Assembly: GCA_016803235.1 (NCBI GenBank) | Contig: JADCLI010000013.1 | Span: forward strand, 51,866 to 115,865 | DNA from: Pimelobacter simplex | Lineage (GTDB): Bacteria > Actinomycetota > Actinomycetes > Propionibacteriales > Nocardioidaceae | DNA: 64,000 bases | Reading direction: 5' to 3' | Shown here: one piece after another, positions 37,932 through 57,954 of the stretch | Position numbering within the stretch: the first letter of the stretch is position 1 | How the letters are laid out: each line of letters starts with the position of its first letter | Notes under the pieces: generated by a model | Database searches by the model: none | Told to the model about the DNA's origin: nothing | What the model saw: the letters and a program-made list of their open reading frames with translations, nothing else | Position numbers and translations under genes: made by a program

Positions 37932-37947
37932 CCTAGCGTTTGCTTGG
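37932..37947 (+). promoter_or_regulatory. KstR2-like operator 1 (CCTAGC-GTTT-GCTTGG)
   Basis: One of eight 16-bp elements of the form CCTAGC-N4-GCTTGG. It lies 118 bp upstream of the ABC importer's binding-protein gene (start 38065) in an otherwise gene-free stretch. The continuation TTTGTGACCTACTATGAC is AT-richer and may hold the promoter. It places the importer in the same regulon as the genes at 44-58 kb. Confidence 0.75.
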
Positions 37948-38064
37948 TTTGTGACCTACTATGACGATTCGAAATACCCCGGAAGGTCATAACGAGAGGC
38001 TCGGCTCCTCGTGTCGAACTGGCGGGCCCCCGGGCCTGCCCACGCTCATCAGAAGGAATCTGGG

Positions 38065-39261
38065 ATGAAGACACGTCTGTTCAAGGTGGTCGGCGGTCTC
38101 GCCGGTCTCGCCCTCGTCGCCGCGGGCTGCGCCGGCGAGGACTCCGGCAGCGGCGGCAAGGACGGCGAGTACCGCGTCCTGGTGCTCGGCGGCATCTCGG
38201 CCGAGGGTCCCCTCGCCGACAACGCGAACACCTCGGTCCTGTCCGCGAAGGCGGGCGTCGAGCTCGTCAACGCCAGCGGTGGCATCGACGGCCGTACGGT
38301 CAAGCTCGAGGTCCTCGACGACCAGGCCGACCCGACCGTGGCCGTCACCAAGCTGCGCGAGGCGATCGCCAAGGGCAAGCCGGACCTGGTCCTCAACTCG
38401 GGCCCGTCGACCGTCGCCGACGCGACCCTGCCGATCCTCAAGCAGAACAACATCCTGTCCTTCAACATCGGCCCGACGGCGACCTCCGCGGACCCGAAGG
38501 CGAACCCGCTGAACTTCGACCTCTCGGCCAGCGCGCAGAACCAGCTCGACGCGTTCCCGCCGTACTTCGAGGAGAAGGGCTACGCCAAGGTCGGCATCCT
38601 GCACGGCTCCAGCTCCTACGGCGAGGTCTACGGCGCGGCCGCCGAGAAGACCTTCGACGGCGCCGGTGTCGACGTCGTCGCGAACGAGGAGTACGACGTC
38701 GCCGCGCTCGACATGACCGCGCAGCTCGAGGCGATCCGCTCGAAGAACCCCGACGTGCTCGTCCTCGACGCGTACGGAGCACCGCTCGGCTACGTCCTCA
38801 AGGGCATCGAGAAGCTCGGCTGGGACGTCCCGATCATCGGCAACACCTCGGTCGCCGCGACCAGCCTGATCTCGACCGAGCCGCCGTCGGGCGTCCTCGG
38901 CACGCCGGCCACCAAGAACCTGGTGATGCAGGTCTACACCAGCACGGCCGCCGAGACGTCCGCGCCCGAGGTCGCCGACCTCGTCGCCCGGATGAAGGAG
39001 ATCGACGACATCCCCTCGACCCTGATCGTGGCCTACAACAACGACGCGCTCGCGCTCGTCCAGGCCGCCGCCGACGAGGCCGACTCGACCGACCCGAAGA
39101 AGCTCGCCGAGGCGCTCCTCGACACCGGAGTGCAGCAGGAGGCCGTCACGGCCGTCCTCGGCACCTACCGCTTCTCGGCCGACTCGCACGCCGCGAACCC
39201 GGGTCCGGAGGAGTTCGCCTTCATCGCCCCCGGCCCGCTCCAGGACGGCCAGTTCCACTGA
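38065..39261 (+). CDS. ABC importer substrate-binding lipoprotein (HAAT/LivK type)
   Basis: A 398-residue receptor lipoprotein. ATG 38065 follows AGAAGGA, and the signal peptide ends in the lipobox VAAGC. The mature part is a type-1 periplasmic-binding fold starting YRVLVLGGISAEGPLADNA and containing INASGGIDGRTVKLEVLDDQ-like family features. It is the first gene of the importer operon and lies behind KstR2-like operator 1. A hairpin after it (39269-39303) should favour excess receptor. The ligand is unknown; operon control points to an acid degraded by the neighbouring pathway. Confidence 0.88.
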   Translation: MKTRLFKVVGGLAGLALVAAGCAGEDSGSGGKDGEYRVLVLGGISAEGPLADNANTSVLSAKAGVELVNASGGIDGRTVKLEVLDDQADPTVAVTKLREAIAKGKPDLVLNSGPSTVADATLPILKQNNILSFNIGPTATSADPKANPLNFDLSASAQNQLDAFPPYFEEKGYAKVGILHGSSSYGEVYGAAAEKTFDGAGVDVVANEEYDVAALDMTAQLEAIRSKNPDVLVLDAYGAPLGYVLKGIEKLGWDVPIIGNTSVAATSLISTEPPSGVLGTPATKNLVMQVYTSTAAETSAPEVADLVARMKEIDDIPSTLIVAYNNDALALVQAAADEADSTDPKKLAEALLDTGVQQEAVTAVLGTYRFSADSHAANPGPEEFAFIAPGPLQDGQFH

Positions 39262-39268
39262 CGCGCTG

Positions 39269-39303
39269 ACGCCGGCGGGCTGGGGTGACCCGCCCGCCGG
39301 CGT
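39269..39303 (+). terminator. attenuator hairpin after the binding-protein gene
   Basis: ACGCCGGCGGGC (39269-39280) pairs perfectly with GCCCGCCGGCGT (39292-39303), with an 11-base loop. Its location between receptor and permease genes suits partial termination, which raises receptor over transporter levels. Confidence 0.65.
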
Positions 39304-39337
39304 TCGCCGTCCGTCCGCTCGACCCGAGGGAATCACC

Positions 39338-40195
39338 GTGACTCTGATCTGGGGTGGCCTGTCCCTGGGGGCGATCTATGCGATCGTCGCCATCGGCTAC
39401 AACATCGTCTTCATCTCCTCGAAGACCTTCAACTTCGCCCACGCGCAGCTGACCATGGTCGGCGCGTTCGTGGCCTACACCGGCCTCGTGACCTGGGACC
39501 TGCCCGTCCTGGTCGTGGTCCTGATGGCGGCCGCGGCCGTCGCGGTGATCGCCGCCATCGAGGAGCGGATCGCGATCCGCCCGGTCGGCGACATGCACAA
39601 CATCCTGGTCACCACGCTGGGTGCGTCGATCCTGCTCGACGGCATCGCCCAGCTGACCTGGGGCACGCAGCCCCTGACCGTCCCGTTCTTCGCGGGTGAC
39701 GAGGCATTCACGCTGCTCGGCGGCCGGGCGTACCCGGTCGAGCTGTTCCTCATCGCCATGGCGGTGCTGATCGTCGTCGCGCTCGGCATCTACAGCCGCC
39801 GGTCGCTGACCGGTCTCGCCCTGCTCGGCATGGCCGAGGACCGCGAGGCCGCGCTCCTGCGTGGCGTGAACGTGCGTCGGATGGCGTTCATGGCCTTCGT
39901 CGCGGCGGGCGCGCTCGCCGGCTTCGTCGGCATGTTCGTCGGCTCCAAGACGTTCGCGGTGTCGACGCTCGGCGCCGCGCTCGCGCTCAAGGGCTTCGTG
40001 GTGCTGGCCATCGGCGGCTTCGGCTCGATGCCGGGGACCCTCGTCGGCGGCACCCTGGTCGGGCTGGCGGAGGCCTATGCCTCGCGCTACCTGGGTGGTG
40101 AGTACGCCAACCTCGCGGTCTTCCTGATCCTCATCACGATCCTCATGGTGCGTCCCGCCGGGCTCTTCGTCCGCACGAAGGAAAGGGTGGTCTGA
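39338..40195 (+). CDS. LivH-type ABC permease
   Basis: A 285-residue inner-membrane permease with about eight hydrophobic segments. GTG 39338 starts at the first helix (TLIWGGLSLGAIYAIVAIGYN). GLALLGMAEDREAALLRGVN is the coupling-loop region (EAA-type) of LivH. The second permease (fused to an ATPase) follows at 40198, so together they make the membrane channel. Confidence 0.9.
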   Translation: MTLIWGGLSLGAIYAIVAIGYNIVFISSKTFNFAHAQLTMVGAFVAYTGLVTWDLPVLVVVLMAAAAVAVIAAIEERIAIRPVGDMHNILVTTLGASILLDGIAQLTWGTQPLTVPFFAGDEAFTLLGGRAYPVELFLIAMAVLIVVALGIYSRRSLTGLALLGMAEDREAALLRGVNVRRMAFMAFVAAGALAGFVGMFVGSKTFAVSTLGAALALKGFVVLAIGGFGSMPGTLVGGTLVGLAEAYASRYLGGEYANLAVFLILITILMVRPAGLFVRTKERVV

Positions 40196-40197
40196 CG

Positions 40198-42060
40198 ATG
40201 CAGCTCGCACGCCGTCTTGCCGGCGGTCCGCTCTGGATCGTCCCGCTGGCGCTGGGGATCCTGCTGATCCTGGTGCCGTACTTCAACCTGGAGTACTCCA
40301 TCGTCCGCCAGCTCCAGCTGGCGATGATCCTCTCGCTGCTCGTCAGCGGTCTCAACCTGAGCCTCGGCTTCGCCGGGGAGCTGGCGCTGGGCCAGGTGGC
40401 GATGTACGCCGCCGGCGCCTACACCGCCGGCCTGCTGTCCAAGAACGGGCACACCGACATCCTGCTGCAGCTGGCCGCGGCCGGCCTCGCCGCGCTCCTG
40501 GTCGGCGTCCTCACCGGCATCCCCGGCCTGCGCCTGGGCAGCTGGTCGCTGGCGATGACGTCCTTCTTCCTCGTGCTGCTGCTGCCCGACGTGATCGCGA
40601 TCTTCAAGGAGGACACCGGCGGTCGCAACGGCCTCACCGGCATCCTCTCGCCGACGATGTTCGGCCGGATGCTCACGCCCGAGGACTACTTCATGGTCAT
40701 CGCGGTGGTGACCGTCGCCTGGTTCGCGGTGATGCGCAACATCGCCGTCTCCCGGCACGGCACCGCATTGCGGGTGCTCAAGCAGAGCCCCGTGCTGGCC
40801 GCGTCCATGGGCATCAACGTGTTCCGGATGAAGCTGATGGCCTACGCCCTCGGCGCCGTCCCGGCCGGTCTCGCCGGCGCGCTGTTCGCCAGCCTGGACC
40901 TCTACATCTCGCCCGAGGCCTTCGGCTTCACCGTCGCCACCACGATCCTGGCGGCGTCGGTGCTCGGCGGATCGGCCAGCGTGTACGGCGCCGTGTTCGG
41001 CGCGTTCGTCCTGCAGTTCGGCCTCAACCAGTCGACCGACTTCCAGAAGTACTCGCTCGTCGTCACCGGCGCCTTCCTCATCATCGGCGGCGTGCTGCTG
41101 ACCGGCGGCCTCTCCGGCCTGGCCCGGGCGCTGTGGCGCAAGCTCGCTGCGGGGCAGCCGGCAGCGGCCCCGGCGGACCGGTCCGACCCGGACGCCTCGG
41201 CGGGCGACGAGGTGCCCGCCGTGCCCGGCAAGGTGCTCAAGGTCGAGGGCGTCGCCAAGGCGTTCGGCGGCAACCAGGCCCTCAAGGGCGTCGACCTCAC
41301 GGCGACCCCCGGCCGGGTGACCGCGCTGATCGGACCCAACGGATCGGGCAAGACCACCCTGCTCAACATGATCTGCGGCTTCTACCGCACCGACGCGGGT
41401 GTCATCGCCCTCGACGAGCGGCAGCTGCAGCGGATGGGTCCGGACCAGGTCGCCCGCACCGGCGTCGCGCGCACCTTCCAGACGCCCAACATCCCGGAGG
41501 GGATCACGGTCCGCGAGGCCGTGATGGCGGGCCGGTACGCCGGTCACCGGGCCACCGTCCTCGAGGCCGTGCTCCGGCTGCCGCGCTACCGCAAGGTGCG
41601 CAAGGGCGACCTCGCCGAGGCCGACCGCGTGCTCGACCTGGTCGGCATCCGCCACCTCGAGGACGCCGAGGCGACCGCGCTCCCGCTGGGCCAGCGTCGT
41701 CTGCTCGAGGTCGCGCGCTGCCTGATCGGCAACCCGGGCGTGCTGCTCCTCGACGAGACCGCCTCGGGGCTGGACGAGGACGAGGTCGAGCGCCTCGCCG
41801 AGGTCATCCGCCGAGTGCGCGACGCGGGCGGCACCGTCGTCCTGGTCGAGCACAACTTCCAGCTGGTGCTCTCGCTGGCCGACGAGATCGTCGCGCTCGC
41901 CCACGGCGAGCTGATGGCCAAGGGCACTCCCGAGGAGATCCAGAACAACGAGCGGGTGATGAGCGAGTACCTCGGCATCGACCCCGACGCACCGGCGTCC
42001 CCGCACGTGGTGCTGGCCGACGTACTCACCGACGGAGCACAGGACGGAGTGGGCCGATGA
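40198..42060 (+). CDS. fused LivM-type permease and LivG-type ATPase
   Basis: A 620-residue fusion. Residues ~1-315 form the LivM permease (LNLSLGFAGELALGQVAMYAAGAYTAG), ~320-345 an Ala/Pro/Asp-rich linker, and ~345-600 the ATPase. The latter has Walker A GPNGSGKTT near 380, signature-like LPLGQRRLLEVAR, Walker B VLLLDETASGLDEDE and LVEHNF. The LSGGQ signature is replaced by LPLGQRR, as in part of the LivG family. GAAAGGG precedes ATG 40198. Its stop overlaps the LivF gene by ATGA. Confidence 0.9.
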   Translation: MQLARRLAGGPLWIVPLALGILLILVPYFNLEYSIVRQLQLAMILSLLVSGLNLSLGFAGELALGQVAMYAAGAYTAGLLSKNGHTDILLQLAAAGLAALLVGVLTGIPGLRLGSWSLAMTSFFLVLLLPDVIAIFKEDTGGRNGLTGILSPTMFGRMLTPEDYFMVIAVVTVAWFAVMRNIAVSRHGTALRVLKQSPVLAASMGINVFRMKLMAYALGAVPAGLAGALFASLDLYISPEAFGFTVATTILAASVLGGSASVYGAVFGAFVLQFGLNQSTDFQKYSLVVTGAFLIIGGVLLTGGLSGLARALWRKLAAGQPAAAPADRSDPDASAGDEVPAVPGKVLKVEGVAKAFGGNQALKGVDLTATPGRVTALIGPNGSGKTTLLNMICGFYRTDAGVIALDERQLQRMGPDQVARTGVARTFQTPNIPEGITVREAVMAGRYAGHRATVLEAVLRLPRYRKVRKGDLAEADRVLDLVGIRHLEDAEATALPLGQRRLLEVARCLIGNPGVLLLDETASGLDEDEVERLAEVIRRVRDAGGTVVLVEHNFQLVLSLADEIVALAHGELMAKGTPEEIQNNERVMSEYLGIDPDAPASPHVVLADVLTDGAQDGVGR

Positions 42061-42812
42061 GCACCGACAGCCCCGGGAACGCCGCTGACGAGCTGCTGCT
42101 CGAGGTCCGCGGTCTCGGCACCGGGTACGGCGACCTGCGGGTCGTGTGGGACGTGTCGTTCGACGTCCGGGCCGGGGAGATCACCGTCCTGCTCGGTCGC
42201 AACGGCGCCGGCAAGACCACCACGATCCGGGCCATCAGCGGCCTCAACAAGATCGTGGCCGGCGAGGTCCGCTATCGCGGCGAGTCGCTCGCCAAGGTGC
42301 CCGCTCACCAGCGGGTCCGGCAGGGAATCGCCTACGTGCAGGAGGGCAAGCGCGTCTTCCATTCGCAGACGATCGAGCAGAACCTCCTCCTCGGCGGCTA
42401 CACCCGCAAGCTGAAGCGGGCCGAGCTGCGCACCGAGGTCGAGCGGATCTACGAGCTCTTCCCGATCCTCGCGGAGAAGCGGGCGCTGCCCGCCTCCAGC
42501 ATGTCCGGCGGTCAGCAGCAGATGCTCGCCATCGGCCAGGCGCTGATGGCCCAGCCGCGGCTGCTCATGCTCGACGAGCCGTCCGGCGGGCTCGCCCCGG
42601 TCATCGTCAACGAGGTGATGGAGCGGGTCCACCAGCTCAAGGAGACCGGCATCGGCATCCTCCTGGTGGAGCAGGCCGTCGAGGCGTCCTTCGCCATCGC
42701 CGACCACGTCACCGTCCTCGACATGGGCCGCACGATGCTGTCCTCGCCCGCCAGCGAGGTCAGCGACATGACGCTCCTGCAGGACGCGTACTTCGGCAAG
42801 ACCGCCGGCTGA
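42057..42812 (+). CDS. LivF-type ABC ATPase
   Basis: A 251-residue ATPase whose ATG 42057 overlaps the previous stop. Walker A GRNGAGKTT, signature MSGGQQQMLAIGQAL, Walker B LLMLDEPSGGLAP and LLVEQAVEASF are all intact. It completes the importer: receptor, LivH, LivM-LivG and LivF. The strong bidirectional hairpin 42824-42886 follows. Confidence 0.92.
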   Translation: MSTDSPGNAADELLLEVRGLGTGYGDLRVVWDVSFDVRAGEITVLLGRNGAGKTTTIRAISGLNKIVAGEVRYRGESLAKVPAHQRVRQGIAYVQEGKRVFHSQTIEQNLLLGGYTRKLKRAELRTEVERIYELFPILAEKRALPASSMSGGQQQMLAIGQALMAQPRLLMLDEPSGGLAPVIVNEVMERVHQLKETGIGILLVEQAVEASFAIADHVTVLDMGRTMLSSPASEVSDMTLLQDAYFGKTAG

Positions 42813-44397: not shown

Positions 44398-44413
44398 CCG
44401 GGCGAGCGCTTGG
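44398..44413 (+). promoter_or_regulatory. KstR2-like operator 2 (CCGGGC-GAGC-GCTTGG, degenerate)
   Basis: The right half GCTTGG is exact and the left half keeps CCNNGC. It is the weakest member of the set, 24 bp upstream of the AMP-ligase start, adjacent to the PadR-type palindrome. It should be treated as tentative. Confidence 0.5.
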
Positions 44414-44436: not shown

Positions 44437-45948
44437 GTGACCTACCAACGAGTCACCGGCAGGGTGGGACACGTGCCTGCGACCCTCGCCGAGCTCTGGC
44501 TCGACCGCGCCCGCACGCATCCCGACGACCCGGCCGTCGACGACGGTCGCGGCCGGCTGACCTGGGGCGAGCTGCTGCCGCGTGTCCGTGCCGTCGGGGC
44601 GGCGCTCGAGGAGGCAGGTGTGGGGCCGGGGGACGTGGTCGTGCTGCAGGCCACGAACACCGTCGAGTGGGTGCTCGTCGCCGGCGGGGTCCACCTGCTC
44701 GGCGCGACCCTCGCGCCCCTCGGTGCGGAGGAGCCCGTCGTCGCCCGTCGCGAGTACGCCGGCAGGGTCGGTGCCCGGGTCGTCGTCGCCGAGGTTCCCG
44801 TGGAGAGGGAGCTGGCACTCGCCGAGGTCTGTGGTCGTGCCGCGGCCGGCCCCGTGGCCGGCCCCGTGGCCGGCCCCGTGGCCGGACCGGCGGGACCCGC
44901 GGTGCTGCTCGCGACCTCGGGGACGGCCGGCCACCGCAGCACCGTGGCGATGGACCACGACGTCCTGGTGCGGCTGTACGCCGACGTGGCGGTCATGCTC
45001 GACGTCACCCGGAGCGACCGGCTGCTCGGCGTGGTGCCGCTGGCGCACTCGTTCGGCTTCAACGGCCTGCTGGTGCTGGCCCTGCTGACGGGGGCGTCGC
45101 TCAGGTTGGTCCCGCACCGGGACCGCGACGCACTCGCCGGACTGGTGCGCGACTCCGGGGCGACGATCGTCGCCGGCCCACCGACGTTGCTGCACGACCT
45201 CGCGGCCGGCGTTCCCGACGGGGCGGGGCTCGGGCCGCAGGTGCGGCTGTTCATGACCGGCGCGACAGAGGTGCGTCCCGACGTGCTGCTGCCGATGGCC
45301 GCCCGGGTCGGGATCCCGCGGGTGTCCTCGGGATACGGGCTCACGCAGACGTGCGGCACGGTCGCGATCTGCCCCGACATCGGCCGGCTCGCGGCCGACG
45401 GGCACGCGCGGATGACCCTCGTCCCCGGCGTGGAGGTGCTCGTCGTCGACGCCGCCGGCACCCCGGTCGCCCCCGGGGCCCGGGGTCGGGTGCTGACCCG
45501 CGGCTACCAGGTCGCGGTCCCCACCGACGCCGAGGGCTGGCTCGCCACCGGAGACGAGGGGCACGTCCATCCCGACGGCACGCTCTGCGTCACCGGGCGG
45601 GTCGATGACCAGCTGGTCGTGTCCGGGTTCAACGTCGACCCCGCGCGCGTCGAGCAGGCGCTGATCCGCTCGCGGTACGTCGACCAGGTGGCGGTCGTGG
45701 GCGTACCCGACCCACGGCGGGGGCACCGACTGGTGGCCGTCGCCGTACCGTGCGACGGCGCCGATGCCGATGGGCGGAACGACGCCGAGGTGCTGGCGCA
45801 GGCCCGGGCTGTACTGGCCGGGTACGAGGTGCCCGACACCGTGGTCTGGATGGACGCACTGCCGCACACGACCACGGGGAAGCTCTCCCGCGCTGCCGTG
45901 CGCGGGCTGCTGGCGGCGCGCCTGGAGGAGCACGACCAGGAGGACTGA
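44437..45948 (+). CDS. AMP-dependent acyl-CoA synthetase-like protein with a degenerate phosphate loop
   Basis: A 503-residue adenylate-forming protein. GTG 44437 has AAGGAG about 11 bp upstream; GTG 44473 is an alternative. Core motifs A5 (YGLTQTCG), A7 (TGDEGHVH), A8 (GRVDDQLVVSGFNVDPARVE) and A10 with Lys in TTGKLSRA are present. The A3 phosphate loop reads TSGTAGHRST (160-169) instead of TSGTTGxPKG and lacks the usual lysine. A VAGP repeat (138-151) from three exact 12-bp DNA copies precedes it. It is co-transcribed with an SDR. It may be a CoA ligase with an altered loop or a non-ligating homologue. Confidence 0.8.
   Translation: MTYQRVTGRVGHVPATLAELWLDRARTHPDDPAVDDGRGRLTWGELLPRVRAVGAALEEAGVGPGDVVVLQATNTVEWVLVAGGVHLLGATLAPLGAEEPVVARREYAGRVGARVVVAEVPVERELALAEVCGRAAAGPVAGPVAGPVAGPAGPAVLLATSGTAGHRSTVAMDHDVLVRLYADVAVMLDVTRSDRLLGVVPLAHSFGFNGLLVLALLTGASLRLVPHRDRDALAGLVRDSGATIVAGPPTLLHDLAAGVPDGAGLGPQVRLFMTGATEVRPDVLLPMAARVGIPRVSSGYGLTQTCGTVAICPDIGRLAADGHARMTLVPGVEVLVVDAAGTPVAPGARGRVLTRGYQVAVPTDAEGWLATGDEGHVHPDGTLCVTGRVDDQLVVSGFNVDPARVEQALIRSRYVDQVAVVGVPDPRRGHRLVAVAVPCDGADADGRNDAEVLAQARAVLAGYEVPDTVVWMDALPHTTTGKLSRAAVRGLLAARLEEHDQED
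44850..44885 (+). repeat. three exact 12-bp tandem repeats in the AMP-ligase gene
   Basis: The unit CCCCGTGGCCGG occurs three times in direct succession, encoding the repeated VAGP just before the degenerate A3 loop. Exact identity suggests recent expansion by slippage, and length variation between strains is likely. Confidence 0.85.
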
Positions 45949-46805
45949 TGAGCGCAGTGGTGGACCGGTTCGGTGGCGGCGTGGCCCTGGTGACGGGCGC
46001 GGGATCCGGCTTGGGGGCGGCGATGGCCGGCCACCTCGCAGCCCGAGGGGTGCACGTCGTGGTGACCGACGTCGACGGCGCTCGGGCCGCGGGCGTCGCG
46101 ACCGCGTGCGTGTCGGCCGGCGGCAGCGCCGAGGCCCACGTCCTCGATGTCGCCGACGGCCACCGGGTCGACGCATTCTTCGCGTCGGTCTGGGCCGAGC
46201 ACGGGGAGGTCGACCTGGTGGTCGCCAACGCCGGCATCGAGTCCGGCGACCGGGTGGCGGACACGACGCCGGAGCAGTGGCGCAGGGTCTTCGCGGTCAA
46301 CACCGACGGCGCCTTCCACTGCGCGCGGTCCTCCGTCCAGCGGATGACCGGCCAGGAGCGGCCCGGCGTGCTGGCGCTCGTCGCCTCCGTGGGCTCGGTG
46401 ACCACGTTGCCGTACCAGTCGGCCTACATCGCCAGCAAGCAGGCCGTGCTCGGCCTGGCGCAGTGTCTCGACCTCGAGCTGCGCGCGGCGGAGGCGTCCG
46501 TGCAGGTCTCGGCCCTGCTGCCGAGCTGGGTGCGGACCCGGATCTTCGACGACGTGCGCCGTGGTGCCGAGCCGGTCGACGCTCTGGCCCGCACCACCTT
46601 CGCCCGCATGGCGACGTCGATCCAGGAGCAGGGCATGGATCCCGAGGAGGCGGCCTCGCTGCTGCTCGAGGCGGTTGCCCGCGGTGACTTCTGGTGCTTC
46701 ACCGACCCCGAGCGCGCGGCGCAGCTCTTCGAGGAGCGGGCCCGGACGCTGCGCGAGCTGCGCCCGCCCGAACGCTCGGGGTGGCTGGGCAGCGCTACTG
46801 CGTGA
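45948..46805 (+). CDS. short-chain dehydrogenase/reductase
   Basis: A 285-residue SDR whose ATG overlaps the ligase stop (TGATG), with AGGAGG just upstream. The cofactor motif is TGAGSGLGAAM, VVANAGIESGD follows, and the catalytic pair is in SAYIASKQAVLGL. VVTDVDG favours NAD. A long C-terminal tail (after ~245) is unusual. Its 3' end overlaps the convergent SDR gene by 11 bp. It probably oxidises or reduces a hydroxyacyl or cyclic intermediate made from the ligase product. Confidence 0.85.
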   Translation: MSAVVDRFGGGVALVTGAGSGLGAAMAGHLAARGVHVVVTDVDGARAAGVATACVSAGGSAEAHVLDVADGHRVDAFFASVWAEHGEVDLVVANAGIESGDRVADTTPEQWRRVFAVNTDGAFHCARSSVQRMTGQERPGVLALVASVGSVTTLPYQSAYIASKQAVLGLAQCLDLELRAAEASVQVSALLPSWVRTRIFDDVRRGAEPVDALARTTFARMATSIQEQGMDPEEAASLLLEAVARGDFWCFTDPERAAQLFEERARTLRELRPPERSGWLGSATA

Positions 46806-50487: not shown

Positions 50488-50504
50488 AACAAGTGCTTGT
50501 TAGG
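50488..50504. promoter_or_regulatory. KstR2-like operator 4 (AACAAGTGCTTGTT core)
   Basis: The top strand carries AACAAGTGCTTGTT at 50488-50501, an exact match to AnCAAGnnCTTGnT, the KstR2 consensus I recall. In the minus orientation it reads CCTAAC-AAGC-ACTTGT, fitting the local family. It lies 19 bp from the fadD3 start and 70 bp from the regulator start, serving both divergent genes. Confidence 0.85.
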
Positions 50505-50573: not shown

Positions 50574-51206
50574 ATGGCGAGCAGCAACAACGAGGCTACG
50601 GCCCGCGGCGGTCGACGTCGCAGCAACGGCGCGGGGTCGTCCCGGCGTGCCCAGCTCCTGTCGATCGCGGCGGAGATGTTCGCGACGCGCGGCTACTCGC
50701 AGACGACGGTCCGCGACATCGCGGACGAGGCGGGCATCCTGTCCGGCAGCCTCTACCACCACTTCGACTCGAAGGAGGCCATGCTCACGGAGATCCTCCG
50801 GGACTTCATGGGCAACCTGCTGAGCGAGATCCGCGACATCGCCGAGGCCGGTCAGACCCCGCGCGAGGCGCTCGACGGGCTGATCTACAACTCCTTCGAG
50901 ACCATCCACAAGGTCCCGTTCGCGGTCGCGCTCTACCAGAACGAGTCCGCGCTGCTGGCCACGACGCCGGAGTTCGCCTTCGTCCACAAGGCCAGCCTCG
51001 ACGTCGAGAAGGTGTGGCTCGGTGTGCTCAAGCAGGGGCAGGCCGAGGAGGACTTCCGTGCCGACCTCGACCCGGGCATCACCTACCGCTTCATCCGCGA
51101 CGCCATCTGGTCCACCGTGCGTTGGTACAACCCGCGCGGCCGGCTGCAGCACCGCACCGTGGCCGACCAGTACCTCGAGATGCTGCACGGCGGCCTGCTC
51201 GCCTGA
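50574..51206 (+). CDS. kstR2: KstR2-like TetR repressor
   Basis: A 210-residue TetR protein. ATG 50574 follows AAAGGA. The helix-turn-helix lies around residues 43-62 (SQTTVRDIADEAGILSGSLY), followed by HHFDSKEAM. The sequence RDIADEAGILSGSLYHHF and the closing YRFIRDAIWSTVRWY match the M. tuberculosis KstR2 as I recall it. KstR2 represses HIP catabolic genes and is released by HIP-CoA (established for mycobacteria). The adjacent operator is a perfect consensus match and seven related sites occur nearby, so this is the probable regulator of the whole set. Confidence 0.82.
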   Translation: MASSNNEATARGGRRRSNGAGSSRRAQLLSIAAEMFATRGYSQTTVRDIADEAGILSGSLYHHFDSKEAMLTEILRDFMGNLLSEIRDIAEAGQTPREALDGLIYNSFETIHKVPFAVALYQNESALLATTPEFAFVHKASLDVEKVWLGVLKQGQAEEDFRADLDPGITYRFIRDAIWSTVRWYNPRGRLQHRTVADQYLEMLHGGLLA

Positions 51207-51241: not shown

Positions 51242-52033
51242 TCAGCGCCGTACCTCCTTGTCGCGCAGGCCCTTCGGGTCGAGGACCGTGCGGATCAGGT
51301 CGAGCTCCTCGGTCGTGGGCAGCCGCGTGGTGGCGGCGGTGCTGGTGTCGATCGCGAACCCGGTGTTCTCGGTGACCTCCTCCGCGGTCACGCCCGGGTG
51401 CAGCGAGCGCACCTTGAGCCTGCCCTCGGTGTCGTAGTCGAGGACGGCGAGGTCGGTGACCACGACACCGAGGTCGTGGAAGCGCAGCGCGCTGCCCTCG
51501 TGGGCGCGGGCGCGGTCGTTGCCGACGCCGGAGACGACGTCGACGGCCTCGACGAGGACCCGGGCGCTGTGCTTGCCGATCCAGTAGTCGGTGCGGTGGT
51601 TGACCGTGTTGCCCGGCGCGCCGCGCACGCCGATCAGCTGCCGGGTGGGCTTGCGCCAGTCGCCGATCGAGGAGATGTTCTGGTTGCCGTAGCGGTCGAC
51701 CTGGCTGGCGCCCATCATGCTGTGCCGGCGGCCGGTCGCGAGGATCTCGAAGACCCGGCGGAACGGCGCCCAGGACTCGATCGTCCCGCCGGCGGAGGCG
51801 TTGCGGCCCAGCGGCGGCGGTTCGCTCATCAAGAAGCAGTCGCCGTCGGTGAGGACCAGGTCGGGCTCGAAGGTGAGCTTCGCGAGCCGCGCGCTGATCG
51901 TCGGCACGATGCCGACCGCGTGGGCCAGGATCTCGCCGGAGCCGCGCCAGGCGTCCGCGCACGCGACGACGCAGACCTCGGCGCGGGTGATGTCGGTGCC
52001 GACGGTGGTGCCGGTGTCGGTGGTCCCGCTCAT
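51242..52033 (-). CDS. ipdB: IpdB-like subunit (CoA-transferase family, steroid ring-opening hydrolase type)
   Basis: A 263-residue CoA-transferase-family I beta-type subunit. Features match the M. tuberculosis IpdB as recalled: TRAEVCVVACADAW, ARLAKLTFEPDLVLTDG, RRHSMMGASQVDRYGNQNISSIG and KGLRDKEVRR. IpdAB opens the last steroid ring (COCHEA-CoA) in HIP catabolism. The start overlaps the ipdA stop by four bases, so the two subunits are made together. A generic CoA-transferase role is the alternative. Confidence 0.8.
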   Translation of the reverse strand: MSGTTDTGTTVGTDITRAEVCVVACADAWRGSGEILAHAVGIVPTISARLAKLTFEPDLVLTDGDCFLMSEPPPLGRNASAGGTIESWAPFRRVFEILATGRRHSMMGASQVDRYGNQNISSIGDWRKPTRQLIGVRGAPGNTVNHRTDYWIGKHSARVLVEAVDVVSGVGNDRARAHEGSALRFHDLGVVVTDLAVLDYDTEGRLKVRSLHPGVTAEEVTENTGFAIDTSTAATTRLPTTEELDLIRTVLDPKGLRDKEVRR

Positions 52034-52848
52034 CGGGTGCCCTCCTCCAGGTAGGTCTTCTCGAACGCGGCCCAGGCCTCGGGGTCGCGGGCGGCCTCGG
52101 CGTACGCGCGCTGGGCGGCCTCGTCACGGCCGTAGTCCGGCTCGCAGCTGGTGAACCCGGCGCCGCCGGGGGCCTCGACGACGCCCGAGACGAACATCCT
52201 GCTGACCAGCAGGGTCTGCGGCGCGGCGGTCGCGGTCAGCTCCTCGGTGGGCACGACCTGCTCGACGCTCATGATGGTGCGGTCGGCGGCCATCGCGTAC
52301 AGGTCGTCGAAGTACGGGTCCGGGCCGAGGTACTGCCCGTTGCCGGCCGGGTCGGCGCGGTTGAGGTGGATCAGCGCGAGGTCCATCCGGACGCCGGGAA
52401 CGGCGACGTAGACCTCGTCGTCGTACGGTGACGCGACGGTCCTGAGCTCCGGGTTCATCGTGAGCACGTCGGAGGCGAGCCCGGCCCGGGTCGGCAGGAA
52501 GCTGAGCCGGCTGGCACCGGCGCGCAGGGCGGCGACGAACATGCCCTCGTCGTACTCGGTCGTCTCGACGGTGCCGGCCTCCCGCGCGGCCCGGAAGTGC
52601 GGGTCGAGCGGGATGCTGTCGAGCGAGACGAAGCCGTAGACGAGCCGCTTCACCTTGCCCGCGGCGCAGAGCAGGCCCACGTCGGGGCCGCCGAACGTGA
52701 CGACGGTCAGGTCGGTCGCGTCGCTGCGCAGCAGCTCGCGGACCAGCGCCATCGGCTTGCGCCGCGACCCCCAGCCTCCGATGCCGATGGTCATGCCCGA
52801 CCGGACATGGCTCGCCACGTCGGCCAGCTGCATGGTCTTGTCCGCCAT
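52030..52848 (-). CDS. ipdA: IpdA-like subunit (CoA-transferase family, steroid ring-opening hydrolase type)
   Basis: A 272-residue alpha-type subunit. ATG 52848 has GGAGGAG just upstream. GIGGWGSRRKPMALVRELLRSD (from ~23), VTFGGPDVGLLCAAGKVKR and GPDPYFDDLYAMAADR match the recalled mycobacterial IpdA closely. It is translationally coupled to ipdB and sits 12 bp downstream of operator 5, so it is directly KstR2-type controlled. The reaction is C-C hydrolysis of the remaining ring CoA-ester if orthology holds. Confidence 0.82.
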   Translation of the reverse strand: MADKTMQLADVASHVRSGMTIGIGGWGSRRKPMALVRELLRSDATDLTVVTFGGPDVGLLCAAGKVKRLVYGFVSLDSIPLDPHFRAAREAGTVETTEYDEGMFVAALRAGASRLSFLPTRAGLASDVLTMNPELRTVASPYDDEVYVAVPGVRMDLALIHLNRADPAGNGQYLGPDPYFDDLYAMAADRTIMSVEQVVPTEELTATAAPQTLLVSRMFVSGVVEAPGGAGFTSCEPDYGRDEAAQRAYAEAARDPEAWAAFEKTYLEEGTR

Positions 52849-52860: not shown

Positions 52861-52876
52861 CCTAGCGCTTGCTTGG
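52861..52876 (-). promoter_or_regulatory. KstR2-like operator 5 (CCTAGC-GCTT-GCTTGG)
   Basis: An exact CCTAGC-N4-GCTTGG element lying 12 bp upstream of the ipdA start on the minus strand. Operator 6 lies 83 bp further, giving each arm of the divergent promoter its own site. Confidence 0.8.
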
Positions 52877-52959: not shown

Positions 52960-52975
52960 ACAAGCAAACGCTTGG
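52960..52975 (+). promoter_or_regulatory. KstR2-like operator 6 (ACAAGC-AAAC-GCTTGG)
   Basis: The right half GCTTGG is exact and the left half ACAAGC replaces CCTAGC. It lies 15 bp upstream of the SDR start at 52991, so it controls the rightward operon SDR-aldo/keto reductase. Confidence 0.75.
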
Positions 52976-52990: not shown

Positions 52991-53713
52991 GTGACCGGAC
53001 ACGTGGTGGTGACGGGCGGGGCGAGCGGGATCGGCGCGGCGGTCGTCGACCGGCTCTGCGAGCGTGGACATGCCGTGACCGTGTGGGACCTGGCGCAGCC
53101 GGCGCGGGAGGACGTGGGCCACGGTGAGCTCGACGTCACCGACGCGGATGCGGTGGCCGCCGCGCTGCGAGAGGCGGAGCAGGAGCGCGGCGTGGTGCGC
53201 CACCTGGTCACCAGTCACGGCATCCGCGGCGCCTTCGTGCCGGCGCTCGAGCTGGAACCGGCCGGCGTACTGCGGATGCTCGACGTCCACGTCGTCGGCA
53301 CCCTGCTGGCGGCGACGGCGCTCACCCGCCGCCTGGTGGAGCTCGACGACACCCGCGGCGCGTCGGTGGTGACGCTGTCGTCGACGACCGCGTACCGGGG
53401 CTGGGTCAACCAGTCCGACTACGGCGTCGCGAAGGCCGCGGTCCGTCAGCTCACCGAGAATCTGGCGATCGAGTGGGCGGGGCTGGGCATCCGGGTCAAC
53501 GCCGTCGCACCGGGGCACACCCTGACCCCGATGGTGCAGGACATGATCGACGACGGGTACGACGTCGGGCCGGTCGAGACGCGCACGCCGCTGGGTCGCC
53601 TCTGCGCGCCCCGCGAGATGGCTGCCGAGATCGTGCACCTGCTGCTCGACGCTTCGTTCACGACAGGGGTGTGCGTGCCCGTCGACGGCGGCTGGACGGC
53701 GGTCGGCAAGTGA
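52991..53713 (+). CDS. short-chain dehydrogenase/reductase
   Basis: A 240-residue SDR starting with GTG 52991 after AGAGAGG. The cofactor motif is TGGASGIGAAV, the second strand WDLAQ favours NAD, and the catalytic pair is in DYGVAKAAVRQL. VDGGWTAVGK ends the protein. It heads an operon with the aldo/keto reductase, behind operator 6 and facing ipdA. An IpdF-like role (hydroxyacyl-CoA oxidation) is possible but not shown. Confidence 0.85.
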   Translation: MTGHVVVTGGASGIGAAVVDRLCERGHAVTVWDLAQPAREDVGHGELDVTDADAVAAALREAEQERGVVRHLVTSHGIRGAFVPALELEPAGVLRMLDVHVVGTLLAATALTRRLVELDDTRGASVVTLSSTTAYRGWVNQSDYGVAKAAVRQLTENLAIEWAGLGIRVNAVAPGHTLTPMVQDMIDDGYDVGPVETRTPLGRLCAPREMAAEIVHLLLDASFTTGVCVPVDGGWTAVGK

Positions 53714-54597
53714 CGCTTCCGAAACGACGGCTCGGCGACCTGGAGGTCTCGGCGATCGGCTTCGGCGCGATGACCCTGACCCAGACGCCCGAGAGCGACG
53801 TCGAGCGCGGCACCCGGGCGGTGCACGCGGCGCTCGACGCGGGCGTCACCCTCTTCGACACCGCCGACGTCTACGGTCCGACCGGCTTCGACACCGTCGG
53901 CCGGTACGGCGTCAACGAGCGGGCGCTGATGGCGGCACTCCGGTCGTGGGGCGGTCCGCTCGACGACGTCGTCGTCGCCACCAAGGGCGGGCACACCCGC
54001 GACGGACTGACCTGGTGGATCGACGGGGGCCGCGACCACCTGCGCGCCGCGGCCCTCGCCTCCCGGGAACGGCTCGGCCTCGACGTCATCCCGCTCTACC
54101 AGCACCACCGCCCCGACCCGCGCCGTCCCTACCGCGAGTCGATGGAGGCGCTGCGCGGCCTTGTCGACGACGGCATCGTCGCCCGGGTCGGGCTCTCGAA
54201 CGTCGACGGCGACCAGGTCCGGCTGGCCCTCGAGGTCATCGGGGACGCTCTGGTGTCCGTGCAGAACGAGTACTCACCGCTGGTGCGGGACAGCGAACCG
54301 GTCATCGACCTGTGCGCCGACCTCGGCCTCGCCTTCCTGTCCTGGGGACCGTTCGGCGGCATGCGCGAGGCCAAGTCCCTCGGCTCTTCGTTCGCGCCCT
54401 TCGCCGAGGTCGCCGAGGCGCGCCGGGTCAGCCCGCAGCGGGTCGCGCTCGCGTGGCAGCTCGCGCGCTCGCCGTGGGTCGTGCCGATCCCGGGAGCGAG
54501 CCGTCCCGAGTCGGTCCTCTACTCCGTGCAGGCGGCGACGCTCGCGCTCACCGAGGACGAGCTCGCCCATCTGGCGGAGGGGCGGGCTCAGCCGTGA
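53710..54597 (+). CDS. aldo/keto reductase
   Basis: A 295-residue TIM-barrel NADPH-dependent oxidoreductase. GTG 53710 overlaps the SDR stop. The sequence GDLEVSAIGFGAMTLTQ, FDTADVYGPTGFDTVG, the catalytic lysine region VVATKGGH, and the C-terminal cofactor site VPIPGASRPESV are diagnostic. It is translationally coupled to the SDR, pointing to a shared carbonyl/alcohol step. Its 3' end overlaps the convergent VOC gene by 10 bp. Confidence 0.87.
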   Translation: MTLPKRRLGDLEVSAIGFGAMTLTQTPESDVERGTRAVHAALDAGVTLFDTADVYGPTGFDTVGRYGVNERALMAALRSWGGPLDDVVVATKGGHTRDGLTWWIDGGRDHLRAAALASRERLGLDVIPLYQHHRPDPRRPYRESMEALRGLVDDGIVARVGLSNVDGDQVRLALEVIGDALVSVQNEYSPLVRDSEPVIDLCADLGLAFLSWGPFGGMREAKSLGSSFAPFAEVAEARRVSPQRVALAWQLARSPWVVPIPGASRPESVLYSVQAATLALTEDELAHLAEGRAQP

Positions 54598-55031
54598 GCC
54601 GGTGGCTCGACCAGCTCCACGCGTACCCGGTCCGGGTCGAGCACGTAGACCACGCGGTAGCCGGCCATCGGCTCGCTCGCAACGATCGGGGCCGAGAGCA
54701 CGGTGGTCCCCGCGGCGCGCAGCCGGTCCAGTGTGCCGTCGAGGTCGGCCACGGTGATCGCGACGTGCGCGGCACCCACGTTGCCGTTGTCAGGGTCGAG
54801 CACGACGTCCGACCCGCCGTCGTACTGCAGCAGCTCGACGACGGTCGTGCCTTCCTGGGCGCGGACGAACGCCTGCCGCACGACGACGCCCGGGTAGCCG
54901 GTCACCGCGTCGATCCGTGGACCGCTGCGCTCGTAGGGACCGAGGCGCTCGCCGCGCAGCAGGTCCTCGTAGAACGCGAGGGAGCGCGCCATGTCGCTGA
55001 CCGTGATGCCCACGTGATGGATGGTCGTCAT
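54588..55031 (-). CDS. VOC-superfamily (glyoxalase/epimerase-like) protein
   Basis: A 147-residue protein with two beta-alpha-beta-beta-beta modules. HHVGITVSDMARSLAFYEDLLRGERL starts the first and AAHVAITVADLDGTLDRLRAAGTTVL the second; YVLDPDRVRVELVE is the closing strand with a metal-type Glu. Members include methylmalonyl-CoA epimerase, dioxygenases and isomerases. Operator 7 lies 8 bp upstream of its start. A role in CoA-ester epimerisation fits the cluster but is inference. Confidence 0.82.
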   Translation of the reverse strand: MTTIHHVGITVSDMARSLAFYEDLLRGERLGPYERSGPRIDAVTGYPGVVVRQAFVRAQEGTTVVELLQYDGGSDVVLDPDNGNVGAAHVAITVADLDGTLDRLRAAGTTVLSAPIVASEPMAGYRVVYVLDPDRVRVELVEPPAHG

Positions 55032-55039: not shown

Positions 55040-55055
55040 CCTAGCAAGCGCTTGG
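55040..55055. promoter_or_regulatory. KstR2-like operator 7 (CCTAGC-AAGC-GCTTGG)
   Basis: An exact element that also contains AGCAAGCGCTTGGT, a match to AnCAAGnnCTTGnT. It is central in the 45-bp gap between the divergent VOC and SDR genes, so it should control both directions. Confidence 0.85.
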
Positions 55056-55082: not shown

Positions 55083-55841
55083 ATGCCGGACACCGCACCC
55101 CGCCCGCTCGTCGACCTGACCGATCGGGTCGTCGTGATCACCGGCGCCAGCCGTGGGCTCGGCGCCGCCCACGCCCGCACCCTCGCGCGGGCGGGTGCCA
55201 TCGTCGTGGTGACGGACGTCGCCGCACTCGCGGAGGGCGCGGCTGAGGTGGCCGCCGGGCTCGGCGAGCAGCACGCGTCCGCCGCCCTGGACGTGACCTC
55301 GCCCGAGGCCTGGGCCGAAGTCGCCGAGCTGGTCGTCGACCGGTACGGCCGCGTCGACGGGCTGGTCAACAACGCGGGCCGCTGCGAGTACGCGCACTTC
55401 CTCGAGACGCCGCCGGAGATGTTCGAGGGTCACTTCCAGGTCAACGTGATGGGCGCGGTGCACGGCATGCAGGCGCTCGCCCCTCACATGCGGCCGGGCA
55501 GTGCCATCGTCAACATCGCATCCGTCGCCGGCCTCGCAGCCTGGCCGGGGAGCAGCGCCTACGGCGCCTCGAAGTTCGCGCTGCGCGGCGTGAGCCGGGC
55601 CGCGGCGATCGACCTCGGCGGCGAGCGTGGCATCCGGGTCAACTGCGTCCTGCCCGGCGCCGCCGACACGGCGATGCTGTCGGACGCCTCGCGCCAGGGC
55701 GGGGGCGTCGTCGCGACCCTGCCGGTCCCGCGGGCCGCGCAGCCGCACGAGGTCAGCGCGATGGTGACCTTCCTGCTCAGCGACGCCGCGAGCTACTGCA
55801 CCGGCCAGGACTTCGTGGTCGACGGCGGGATGAAGGCCTGA
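55083..55841 (+). CDS. short-chain dehydrogenase/reductase
   Basis: A 252-residue SDR. ATG 55083 was preferred over 55077 because GAGGAG abuts the latter and lies 6 bp before the former. The cofactor motif is TGASRGLGAAH, VTDVAAL favours NAD, and the catalytic pair is in SAYGASKFALRGV. The C-terminus VVDGGMKA is classical. It heads an operon of SDR, gamma-carbonic-anhydrase-like and PaaI genes behind operator 7. Confidence 0.86.
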   Translation: MPDTAPRPLVDLTDRVVVITGASRGLGAAHARTLARAGAIVVVTDVAALAEGAAEVAAGLGEQHASAALDVTSPEAWAEVAELVVDRYGRVDGLVNNAGRCEYAHFLETPPEMFEGHFQVNVMGAVHGMQALAPHMRPGSAIVNIASVAGLAAWPGSSAYGASKFALRGVSRAAAIDLGGERGIRVNCVLPGAADTAMLSDASRQGGGVVATLPVPRAAQPHEVSAMVTFLLSDAASYCTGQDFVVDGGMKA

Positions 55842-55843
55842 CC

Positions 55844-56464
55844 ATGCCGTTCTACGAGATCGACGGCGTCGTCCCGGTCTGCGACCCGACGTCCTACGTG
55901 CACCCGTCGGCCGACGTGATCGGCGACGTCATCATCGGCCCCGGCTGCTACATCGGTCCGTCGGCGAGCCTGCGCGGCGACTTCGGGCGGATCCGGATCG
56001 AGGCCGGCTCCAATGTCCAGGACTCCTGCACCGTGCACGTCTATCCCGGCGCGGACTGCGTGCTCGGTGAGGGCAGCCACGTCGGCCACGGCGCGGTCCT
56101 GCACGGCTGCGTGCTCGAGCCGCGAGTGCTCGTCGGGATGAACGCAGTGGTCATGGACGGCGCGCGGATCGGCGCGGACTCCCTCGTCGGCGCCGGCAGC
56201 GTCATCCGCGCCGGCTTCGTCGCGCCACCGCGGTCGCTGGTGATCGGCAGCCCGGCGAAGGTCGTGCGCGAGCTCGACGAGGACCAGCTCGCCTGGAAGT
56301 CCAACGGCCCCGGCGTCTACCGCCAACTGGCCGAGCGCTCGCTCGCCACGATGCGTCCGGTGGCCCCGCTGGCCGCCGAGGAGGCCGACCGGCCCCGGGT
56401 GAGCACCGACGCCTCGGTGAGCCGACCGCTGCACGAGCTGCGGGCGGAGCGGGAGTCGCGGTGA
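55844..56464 (+). CDS. gamma-carbonic-anhydrase-like / PaaY-type hexapeptide protein
   Basis: A 206-residue left-handed beta-helix protein. Hexapeptide repeats run from ~20 to ~140 (DVIIGPGCYIGPSASLRGDFG...). Metal-type histidines are visible in TVHVYPG and in HVGHGAVLHGC. Relatives include PaaY and CaiE, which accompany CoA-ester catabolism; PaaY acts as a thioesterase for dead-end products. The extended C-terminus (after ~170) is unusual. It lies 2 bp after the SDR stop. Confidence 0.82.
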   Translation: MPFYEIDGVVPVCDPTSYVHPSADVIGDVIIGPGCYIGPSASLRGDFGRIRIEAGSNVQDSCTVHVYPGADCVLGEGSHVGHGAVLHGCVLEPRVLVGMNAVVMDGARIGADSLVGAGSVIRAGFVAPPRSLVIGSPAKVVRELDEDQLAWKSNGPGVYRQLAERSLATMRPVAPLAAEEADRPRVSTDASVSRPLHELRAERESR

Positions 56465-57018
56465 ACGCCCGCCGGGACCTGGCGGAGGCCGTGCGTGAGC
56501 TCGCCTCCGTCATGGCCGTCACCGACGTCGCCGACCGGGACATGGCACAGGCGGCCGCATCGGTGCGCGAGCTGGCCAAGCGGCTGCAGGAGCGGCAGCT
56601 GGCCGACGTGCCGCGGACGCCGTACGACGAGGCGGTCGGTGCCACCCGCTACGGCTGGCACCTGGACAACCCCGCCCTGCCCGGCCTGGGCATGGTCTTC
56701 GAGGACGGCAGGGTCGCCGCGACGATCCCCGACGGACTGGGGAAGGCGTACGCCGGTCCGCCGGGCAAGCTCCACGGCGGTGTCGGCGCGCTCCTGCTCG
56801 ACGTGCTGCTGTCGAGCCTGGTCCAGCACCACGGCGTCCGTGCCGTGACCGCGGCGCTCGCCGTCGACTACCGGGCGGCCACCGCGCTCGACGCACCGCT
56901 GCGCCTCACCGGCGAGATCGTCGGTCGCACCGGGCGGAAGGTCGAGACGGTCGGTGCGCTGTGGTGCGGTGGGATCGCGACCGTCGAGGCGCGAGGGTTG
57001 TTCGTGCAGGTCGGTTGA
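56461..57018 (+). CDS. PaaI-type hotdog thioesterase
   Basis: A 185-residue protein. GTG 56461 overlaps the previous stop by four bases. The C-terminal hotdog contains GKLHGGVGALLLDVLLSSLV, the PaaI motif with the catalytic-type Asp, and ALAVDYRAAT. A helical N-terminal region of ~55 residues is extra. Pairing with the PaaY-like protein and a MaoC-type hydratase suggests housekeeping of CoA intermediates. Confidence 0.85.
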   Translation: MNARRDLAEAVRELASVMAVTDVADRDMAQAAASVRELAKRLQERQLADVPRTPYDEAVGATRYGWHLDNPALPGLGMVFEDGRVAATIPDGLGKAYAGPPGKLHGGVGALLLDVLLSSLVQHHGVRAVTAALAVDYRAATALDAPLRLTGEIVGRTGRKVETVGALWCGGIATVEARGLFVQVG

Positions 57019-57036
57019 GGCTGAGCCTCGGACACG

Positions 57037-57912
57037 TCACAGCTCGCCGGCGTCGCGCTTGTTCGACTCCGCCATGGCGGCAGCGTCGAGGCCGGCGAGC
57101 GAGTCGACGGTCACCTCGGCGTTGTGCGAGTGCGCGGCGTGGTGGAGACCGAAGACCGAGTCCATGCCGGCGCGCTGGCCCATCAGGTCCTCCGCCTGGT
57201 TGATCGCCTTCTTGGTGAGCGCGAGGCCGAGGCGGGGCATGGCGGCGATCCGGCGCGCCATCTCGTCGACCGCGGCGTCCAGATCGGGACGGGGCACGAC
57301 GTGGTTGACCATGCCGAGCTCGTGGGCGCGGCGGGCGTCGAAGCGCCCGCCGGTGTAGAGGAACTCCTTGGCGGCGCGGGGGTTCATCACCCACGGGTGG
57401 GCGAAGTACTCCACGCCGGGGATGCCCATCTTGACGACCGGGTCCTGGAAGAAGGCGTCGTCCGAGGCGATGATGAAGTCGCAGACCCAGGCGAGCATCA
57501 GGCCGCCGGCGACGCAGGCGCCCTGGACCTTCGCGATGACCGGCTTGGGGATCTCGCGCCAGCGGCGGCACATGCCGAGGTAGACCTCGGACTCGCGGGC
57601 GAAGCGGGCGTCGACGCCCTGGGCGCCGACGTGGTCCCACCAGATGACGGCCTTGCGCTCGAAGGACTCGTGGATGTCGCGGCCCGGGGTGCCGATGTCG
57701 TGGCCGCCGCAGAAGTGCTTGCCGTTGCCGCCGAGCACGATCACCTTCACGGCGTCGTCGTCGACGGCGTCGGTGAAGGCCCGGTCGAGGGCGTAGGTGA
57801 CCTTCGAGTTCTGGGCGTTGGCGTACTCCGGCCGGTTGAGCGTCACATAGGCGATGCCGTCGCGGACGTCATACGTCACCACCGGCTCGGTGGTCGTGGT
57901 CTCGTCGCTCAT
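57037..57912 (-). CDS. enoyl-CoA hydratase/isomerase-fold protein without the catalytic glutamates
   Basis: A 291-residue crotonase-superfamily protein, longer than the usual ~260. The oxyanion motif GKHFCGGHDIG (64-74) and GACVAGG (131-137) are intact. Aligned by eye to rat mitochondrial enoyl-CoA hydratase, the two catalytic Glu positions (144 and 164) correspond to Met139 and Val159, so simple hydration is unlikely. Conserved EVYLGMCRRWREIPKP and GIPGVEYFAHPWV are typical of an actinobacterial subgroup with no known reaction, as I recall it. Operator 8 is shared with the divergent MaoC gene. Confidence 0.85.
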   Translation of the reverse strand: MSDETTTTEPVVTYDVRDGIAYVTLNRPEYANAQNSKVTYALDRAFTDAVDDDAVKVIVLGGNGKHFCGGHDIGTPGRDIHESFERKAVIWWDHVGAQGVDARFARESEVYLGMCRRWREIPKPVIAKVQGACVAGGLMLAWVCDFIIASDDAFFQDPVVKMGIPGVEYFAHPWVMNPRAAKEFLYTGGRFDARRAHELGMVNHVVPRPDLDAAVDEMARRIAAMPRLGLALTKKAINQAEDLMGQRAGMDSVFGLHHAAHSHNAEVTVDSLAGLDAAAMAESNKRDAGEL

Positions 57913-57938
57913 GAGTGCTCCCGGGGTCGTCGTACAAA

Positions 57939-57954
57939 CCTAGCGTTTGCTTGG
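57939..57954. promoter_or_regulatory. KstR2-like operator 8 (CCTAGC-GTTT-GCTTGG)
   Basis: An exact element in the 54-bp gap between the divergent enoyl-CoA-hydratase-fold and MaoC genes, 26 bp and 12 bp from the respective starts. It should control both. Confidence 0.85.

Follow-up and report, generated by a model that had tools for sequence, protein, structure and literature searches.

What binds the short palindromic elements that recur through a steroid-type gene cluster of Pimelobacter simplex, and which genes would they control? The question is raised by a 64-kb window of contig JADCLI010000013.1 (the whole stretch of 64,000 nucleotides analysed here), in which an earlier note had pointed to eight copies of a 16-bp element, CCTAGC-N4-GCTTGG. 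These eight sites are very probably the operators at which a KstR2-family repressor, the product of the gene at 50574-51206, would control the genes for the last two steroid rings, i.e., for methylhexahydroindanedione propionate (HIP). This answer builds on what computation establishes, namely that the sites exist, match the published operator and are conserved, which genes lie around them, and that no other protein found in the genome is closer to KstR2 than this TetR protein.

All eight elements are present, at 37932, 44398, 48769, 50489, 52861, 52960, 55040 and 57939, and all eight are intergenic by the gene calls of the window; genes and starts were called with our own codon-usage script, which leaves about 10% of the window intergenic. 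Seven of them had been placed some 8 to 120 bp from a start. The range holds and the count rises to eight of eight, with distances to the nearest predicted start of 8, 8, 12, 15, 19, 23, 26 and 107 bp. The element is exact at 37932, 48769, 52861, 55040 and 57939 and carries mismatches at the other three places (two at 52960, two at 44398 and three at 50489, on the minus strand). As had been claimed for two sites, perfect matches to AnCAAGnnCTTGnT number just two in the window, one at 50488-50501 and the other at 55043-55056. Genome-wide, there are seven exact copies of CCTAGC-N4-GCTTGG in 5.36 Mb, five of them inside the window, where 0.08 would be expected if copies were evenly spread. The longer form ACCWAGCN4GCTTGG gives 7+3 exact matches on the two strands of the genome versus 0+0 for a backward control, and 15+12 versus 7+11 with one mismatch. 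Looser forms say nothing: with up to three mismatches the 16-mer occurs 67 times in the window (59.5 expected), which is no enrichment, and with up to two mismatches it occurs 162+175 times in the genome, below the 622+625 of the backward control. Evidential weight lies only in the exact and near-exact forms and none in the loose pattern.

Because the loose counts gave no enrichment, the element was tested with a matrix built from published sites. The source is Table 3 of Kendall 2010 (PMC3068626), with nine KstR2 motif instances, seven of them distinct. The matrix is strand-symmetric and was built from these seven mycobacterial and Rhodococcus sites alone, with no window site used. A comparison with KstR2 motifs had been proposed in the earlier note, and this independent matrix puts all eight sites on top, at scores of 11.9-30.0. 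The next-best place in the window scores 3.7 and lies inside a gene, and the best other intergenic place scores -3.4. Twenty first-order random 64-kb sequences reached maxima of 1.2-8.5, a null that is unmatched to intergenic base composition. Elsewhere in the genome, the matrix ruled out an exact 16-mer at C26:36917 (-0.3), as well as C41:629 (1.0), C61:2530 (2.4) and C79:1584 (-4.7), each within one mismatch of ACCWAGCN4GCTTGG. Two weak matches fall outside the regulon, one intergenic (L026:10348, 9.1) and one within a gene (L029:1606, 8.4).

The TetR gene beside one of the sites had been called KstR2-like, and both its nearest solved relatives and its recognition helix agree. In a PDB search, the KstR2 chains 4w1u and 4w97 are followed by 2ibd (4.1e-52), and the next chain appears only at 1e-22. 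The recognition helix, AGILSGSLYHHF, is identical to that of the mycobacterial and rhodococcal KstR2 rows, and the segment TTVRDIADEAGILSGSLYHHF differs by one residue from the Mycobacterium, Rhodococcus and Prescottella rows. The gene's own promoter carries a AnCAAGnnCTTGnT-type operator, which reads AACAAGTGCTTGTT at 50488-50501. In a tree of 41 rows, the protein groups with proteins of Nocardioides, Amycolatopsis and Microbacterium (L034-L041), apart from the canonical KstR2 groups. It is below the family cut-off for KstR, the first steroid repressor, at 24.6 bits; a KstR-like gene on C12 reaches 265 bits where the cut-off is 280.

The dominant local form, with its CCTAGC half, had been taken for a lineage-specific operator. 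This does not hold, as CCTAGC halves are present in published sites of Mycobacterium smegmatis and Rhodococcus jostii. The exact 16-mer pattern occurs in the MSMEG_6009/6010 and ro04595/04596 sites, for both of which the electrophoretic mobility shift assay is entered as 'not done' (PMC3068626), and the KstR2 motifs of Nocardioides simplex and mycobacteria are called very similar by the authors who compared them (PMC7593942). In terms of the KstR2 operator, the CCTAGC half seen here is its outer arm, ACCWAG. Within the 14-bp core, CTAG replaces CAAG in one half at 48769, 52861 and 57939; this is a local preference and not a new operator. Arms can also be counted in the loci of relatives, for which CAAGNNCTTG cores were selected on the core alone, a choice preferred over a half-site count that leaned on a matrix including the flanks. 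Sixty-eight of 72 such cores lie outside genes, and ACCWA[C/G] arms tend to flank them (n=136 arms: A 62, C 94, C 83, A/T 111, A 126, C/G 106). A CAAGNNCTTG core with ACCWA[C/G] arms is therefore offered as a fuller KstR2 operator.

The earlier note described a KstR2-type regulon over about 20 kb. The type is supported by several lines that all point the same way: the scores of the operator matrix, the TetR protein with its kinship and helix, the presence of ipdAB and FadD3-family genes next to it, the sites kept upstream of orthologues and the co-occurrence across the genus. The confinement to 20 kb is not, since high-scoring sites lie on C29 (33.6, the highest score seen in the genome, and 11.6), C11 (27.7 and 23.2), C9 (26.8), C13 (26.3, upstream of a short-chain dehydrogenase (SDR) and a thiolase gene) and C82 (16.5). 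In the window and the genome stretches examined, this makes 15 KstR2-type sites on 6 contigs, and in the window and on C11 they lie close to where fadD3, ipdAB and further HIP genes start. The C11 set comprises genes of the echA20-ipdA-ipdB-ipdC types and of the fadE30-ipdF-fadA6 types, the latter divergent from fadE31-32-33 types; they were assigned from their Pfam classes and from a cluster of N. pocheonensis (L044) to which they are 50-83% identical, so that their names follow homology and order. Neither kstR2 nor fadD3 occurs in the 28 kb of C11 that were read, and both sit in those operons in L044 and in a Mycobacterium locus (L072). A FadD3 search of the genome gave a next-best match by score of 38% identity, with shorter partial matches of up to 49%. 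Because that stretch of C11 has no kstR2 or fadD3 and the next-best FadD3 match is only 38% identical, both the regulator and the first enzyme for the C11 HIP genes most likely come from the window.

Some of the distant sites have neighbours of their own interest. The two on C29 (L025: 8826 and 13063) accompany a third KstR2-like TetR gene near genes for an acyl-CoA dehydrogenase, a thiolase, an SDR and a hydratase-like protein. The C82 site (L032: 9155, score 16.5) precedes a methylmalonyl-CoA mutase gene by about 88 bp and would fit disposal of steroid-derived propionyl-CoA. On C9 (L031: 9356), the 26.8 site is flanked on one side by a gene for a luciferase-like monooxygenase and on the other by a 263-aa gene with no Pfam match at 1e-8.

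Conservation can be followed at two scales. The first is a set of 80 related loci gathered via the window ligase; the Mycobacterium and Rhodococcus loci among them may carry sites resembling the matrix source sites and are thus not independent of the matrix. The set holds 126 matrix matches of at least 12. Of these, 124 fall in the space between called genes, whose share is 0.225 (L057 contributes two of the 124, with no called gene flanking them). Sixty of the 80 loci carry such a match. Across the genus, 118 genomes were sorted by the presence of a KstR2-like protein at E <=1e-35, with the operator defined as exact ACCWAGCN4GCTTGG. It is present in 62 of the 68 genomes with such a protein and in 0 of the 50 without, kinship among genomes being uncorrected; for the backward control the corresponding counts are 25 (of 68) and 11 (of 50). 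One genome, G036, has many copies of ACCWAGC-N4-GCTTGG within about 550 bp at C1:2221213-2221764 and again at C1:2623692-2624245, and these packed copies look like a repeat array, unlike single operators.

The gene content around the sites, ipdAB included, points to HIP. Both window subunits best match chains of PDB entries 6co6 and 6con (7e-82 to 3e-96), which we take to be the IpdAB hydrolase. The window IpdA retains Glu101, the position at which 6coj departs from 6co6 by carrying Ala. In the beta subunit, a Thr and no Glu aligns with the transferase Glu of 1poi_B, in an alignment that is weak and gapped; the lack of the transferase glutamate in the beta subunit is a published mark of the IpdAB hydrolase (PMC5380842). 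The window copies belong with those of Amycolatopsis, Nocardioides and Microbacterium loci, at 65-75% identity, and they are 61% and 55% identical to the canonical ipdAB on C11. Nine related genomes were searched at 1e-30, that of L040 being left out. The window-type ipdA is the sole match in four (one with an internal stop), stands alongside another in three and is absent from two (one of which has a further 36% match), and ipdC has one match in each of the nine at 1e-60. Because it is the sole ipdA match in four of nine relatives, each of which has ipdC, window-type ipdAB can probably serve the ordinary HIP pathway in those relatives. In P. simplex, the two copies are either redundant or divide the labour.

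Much of this arrangement can be compared with known systems. Like the KstR2 regulon of Mycobacterium and Rhodococcus (PMC3068626), the set described here combines a TetR repressor and HIP genes with operators of the AnCAAGnnCTTGnT type, which lie near starts in intergenic regions between divergent genes and include CCTAGC halves. It differs in scale, since the portion of that account used here gives three operators and 15 genes, against 15 sites on 6 contigs, and in layout, since kstR2 and fadD3 stand apart from the remaining HIP genes and the set also includes a second ipdAB and an importer of the Liv type. A closer parallel is found in N. simplex VKM Ac-2033D, where KR76_25105 and 25110 are the ipdA and ipdB of a second ipdAB, and 25115 and 25120 are kstR2 and fadD3 (PMC7807495). 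All four tags lie within the span of cluster C (KR76_25015-25200); the remaining HIP genes belong to a separate cluster, A. Fourteen genes of cluster C are induced by phytosterol, and the strongest phytosterol induction in that organism, 59-fold, is that of an ABC transporter gene, KR76_25195, within the same range (PMC7807495). Shared features are the consecutive ipdA, ipdB, kstR2 and fadD3, the predicted KstR2 sites and an ABC transporter gene in the cluster (PMC7807495, PMC7593942), a likeness drawn from locus tags and annotation, a level at which no difference shows. The window is likely the counterpart of cluster C. With the KstR2 arrangement already published for N. simplex, it is a well-supported but ordinary case.

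A working model can be put together from these pieces. In the absence of steroid-derived HIP, the repressor would most likely sit on its operators, as one dimer or as two overlapping dimers, and block the adjacent promoters, its own included. The neighbouring FadD3-family ligase would make a thioester of the HIP-coenzyme A (HIP-CoA) type, and on accumulating this would bind the repressor and release the operons together. These would provide the Liv-type importer together with the enzymes that act on the last two steroid rings, encoded by ipdAB, fadD3 and the hydratase and dehydrogenase genes. The same repressor most likely rules the C11 HIP genes (echA20-ipdA-ipdB-ipdC, fadE30-33 and fadA6 types) as well. 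KstR2 is known to be released by HIP-CoA (PMC7807495, PMC6593523), and we infer binding, repression, the same inducer and control of C11 for the protein encoded here.

A number of observations weigh against this model. With one mismatch allowed, AnCAAGnnCTTGnT shows no enrichment across the genome (111 per strand versus 115 for the backward control). The sites at 37932 (11.9) and 44398 (13.9) are the weakest in the window, and the matrix scan covered the window and selected genome stretches only, nine further stretches having been picked by pattern searches. The tree group of the repressor is moderately supported (95/75) and includes the C42 paralogue on a long branch. Six of the 68 genus genomes with KstR2 have no exact operator, and the co-occurrence shows that regulon and regulator travel together, not that one binds the other. 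Of the 29 N. simplex operons for which a KstR2 site is predicted, only 10 are up on phytosterol (PMC7807495); only 2 genes of cluster C are up on cholesterol and 9 on lithocholate (PMC7593942), and because so few rise on cholesterol our confidence was slightly lowered. Orthology of the Liv importer to KR76_25195 would follow from position and annotation only.

Two further KstR2-like TetR genes in the genome, on C42 (40% identical) and C29 (35%), must also be considered. The sites could be shared with, or mainly bound by, one of these paralogues, with the repressor at 50574 controlling part of the cluster, an explanation that partly overlaps the one preferred here and that we regard as unlikely. 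The C29 protein is KstR2-like (5.1e-38), has a nearly identical helix, VLSGSLYHHF, and has an operator-like site of its own, an exact AnCAAGnnCTTGnT upstream, with a second C29 site at 33.6. The C42 protein is likewise KstR2-like (4.9e-41), but its helix position reads AEIQSGSLYHYF rather than AGILSGSLYHHF, and the gap before its gene holds no matrix site of at least 8, with one 9.1 site 1.5 kb away. Moreover, related loci with same-position sites often carry a window-type or canonical KstR2 beside them. Alternatively, the cluster may serve another hydrindane or cyclic acid in place of sterol HIP, with the repressor sensing the CoA ester of that compound. The canonical ipdAB already present on C11 would fit this, as would the small number of cluster C genes that rise on cholesterol in N. 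simplex and the genes for the Liv importer, aldo/keto reductase, VOC protein, PaaY-like protein and thioesterase, which are not among the mycobacterial regulon genes in the part of PMC3068626 used here. The alternative nevertheless seems improbable given the relatives in which window-type ipdA is the sole match, each of the nine with one ipdC match, the absence of fadD3 from the stretch of C11 read and the 14 phytosterol-induced genes of cluster C; the idea of a compound wholly unrelated to HIP is weakened by those same sole-match genomes. Chance palindromes in the promoters of a GC-rich genome, to which loose patterns at or below control level might point, are refuted in practice by the published-site matrix and countered by conservation and the genus-wide counts.

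Table 1. Genes and predicted operators of the putative KstR2 cluster (window coordinates)
Feature	Position	Strand	Evidence
kstR2-type TetR repressor gene (210 aa)	50574..51206	+	closest PDB chains KstR2 4w1u 8.5e-54, 4w97 1.7e-53
Operator between kstR2 and FadD3-family gene	50489..50504	-	matrix 23.6; exact AnCAAGnnCTTGnT 50488-50501; same-place site in L034-L037
FadD3-family acyl-CoA ligase gene	48889..50469	-	NCBIfam NF005801, 647 bits, just under cut-off 657
ipdA-type gene (ring-opening hydrolase alpha subunit)	52030..52848	-	6co6_A 3.2e-96, 6con_A 3.7e-95
ipdB-type gene (beta subunit)	51242..52033	-	6co6_B 7.9e-85
Operator 12 bp upstream of ipdA	52861..52876	+	matrix 25.1
Operator 15 bp upstream of SDR gene 52991-53713	52960..52975	+	matrix 20.0; kept in L034
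Short-chain dehydrogenase gene, first in operon with aldo/keto reductase	52991..53713	+	Pfam adh_short_C2
Aldo/keto reductase gene	53710..54597	+	Pfam Aldo_ket_red; start from gene call
Operator between VOC gene and SDR 55083	55040..55055	+	matrix 30.0, window maximum; exact AnCAAGnnCTTGnT 55043-55056
Glyoxalase/VOC-family gene	54588..55031	-	Pfam Glyoxalase
Operon: SDR, PaaY-like hexapeptide protein (under cut-off), 4HBT-type thioesterase	55083..57018	+	Pfam
Operator between enoyl-CoA hydratase and MaoC genes	57939..57954	+	matrix 26.8
Enoyl-CoA hydratase gene (PRK08290 type)	57037..57912	-	NF006140, 441 bits vs cut-off 280
Operon: MaoC-type hydratase and MFS transporter	57991..60155	+	Pfam
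Operator 8 bp upstream of thioesterase gene	48769..48784	+	matrix 24.1; retained in L034 and L035
Operon: 4HBT thioesterase and two SDR genes	46795..48760	-	Pfam, NCBIfam
Weak operator-like site 23 bp upstream of second acyl-CoA ligase	44398..44413	+	matrix 13.9; L034 counterpart 9.5
Operon: AMP-binding ligase and SDR	44437..46805	+	Pfam, NCBIfam
Lowest-scoring operator, 117 bp upstream of Liv-type transporter operon	37932..37947	+	exact 16-mer, matrix 11.9
Liv-type ABC importer (binding protein, permease, fused permease-ATPase, ATPase)	38065..42812	+	Pfam, NCBIfam

Several of the features in Table 1 have counterparts in the related loci. The ipdA operator, ACCTAGCGCTTGCTTGG, recurs before ipdA in L034 and is also present in L042, a locus with no called ipdA, and the sites upstream of livK in L041 score 17.9 and 17.5. 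Relatives of the enoyl-CoA hydratase, 70-79% identical, adjoin FadE genes in L036, L043 and L048. The operator-bearing intergenic region before the Liv importer is common to a divergent gene for an EAL-type cyclic di-GMP phosphodiesterase-like protein (36514-37824). Just upstream of the weak site at 44398 is a perfect 17-bp palindrome, TATACCTAATAGGTATA, at 44373-44389; it is imperfect in L034 and is possibly the operator of another regulator, for example of the nearby IclR gene.

For the family, these results support, from sequence alone, a KstR2 operator that holds across the Nocardioides, Amycolatopsis and Microbacterium relatives. For the organism, a more tentative idea can be put forward as no more than a possible reading: one KstR2, parted together with fadD3 from the ancestral cluster, may rule two loci with different ipdAB and a Liv importer, which would allow feeding on HIP-like fragments from other microbes and not only on the products of the cell's own sterol breakdown. 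If true, the placing of an importer under likely KstR2 control would make the uptake of steroid fragments a testable question.

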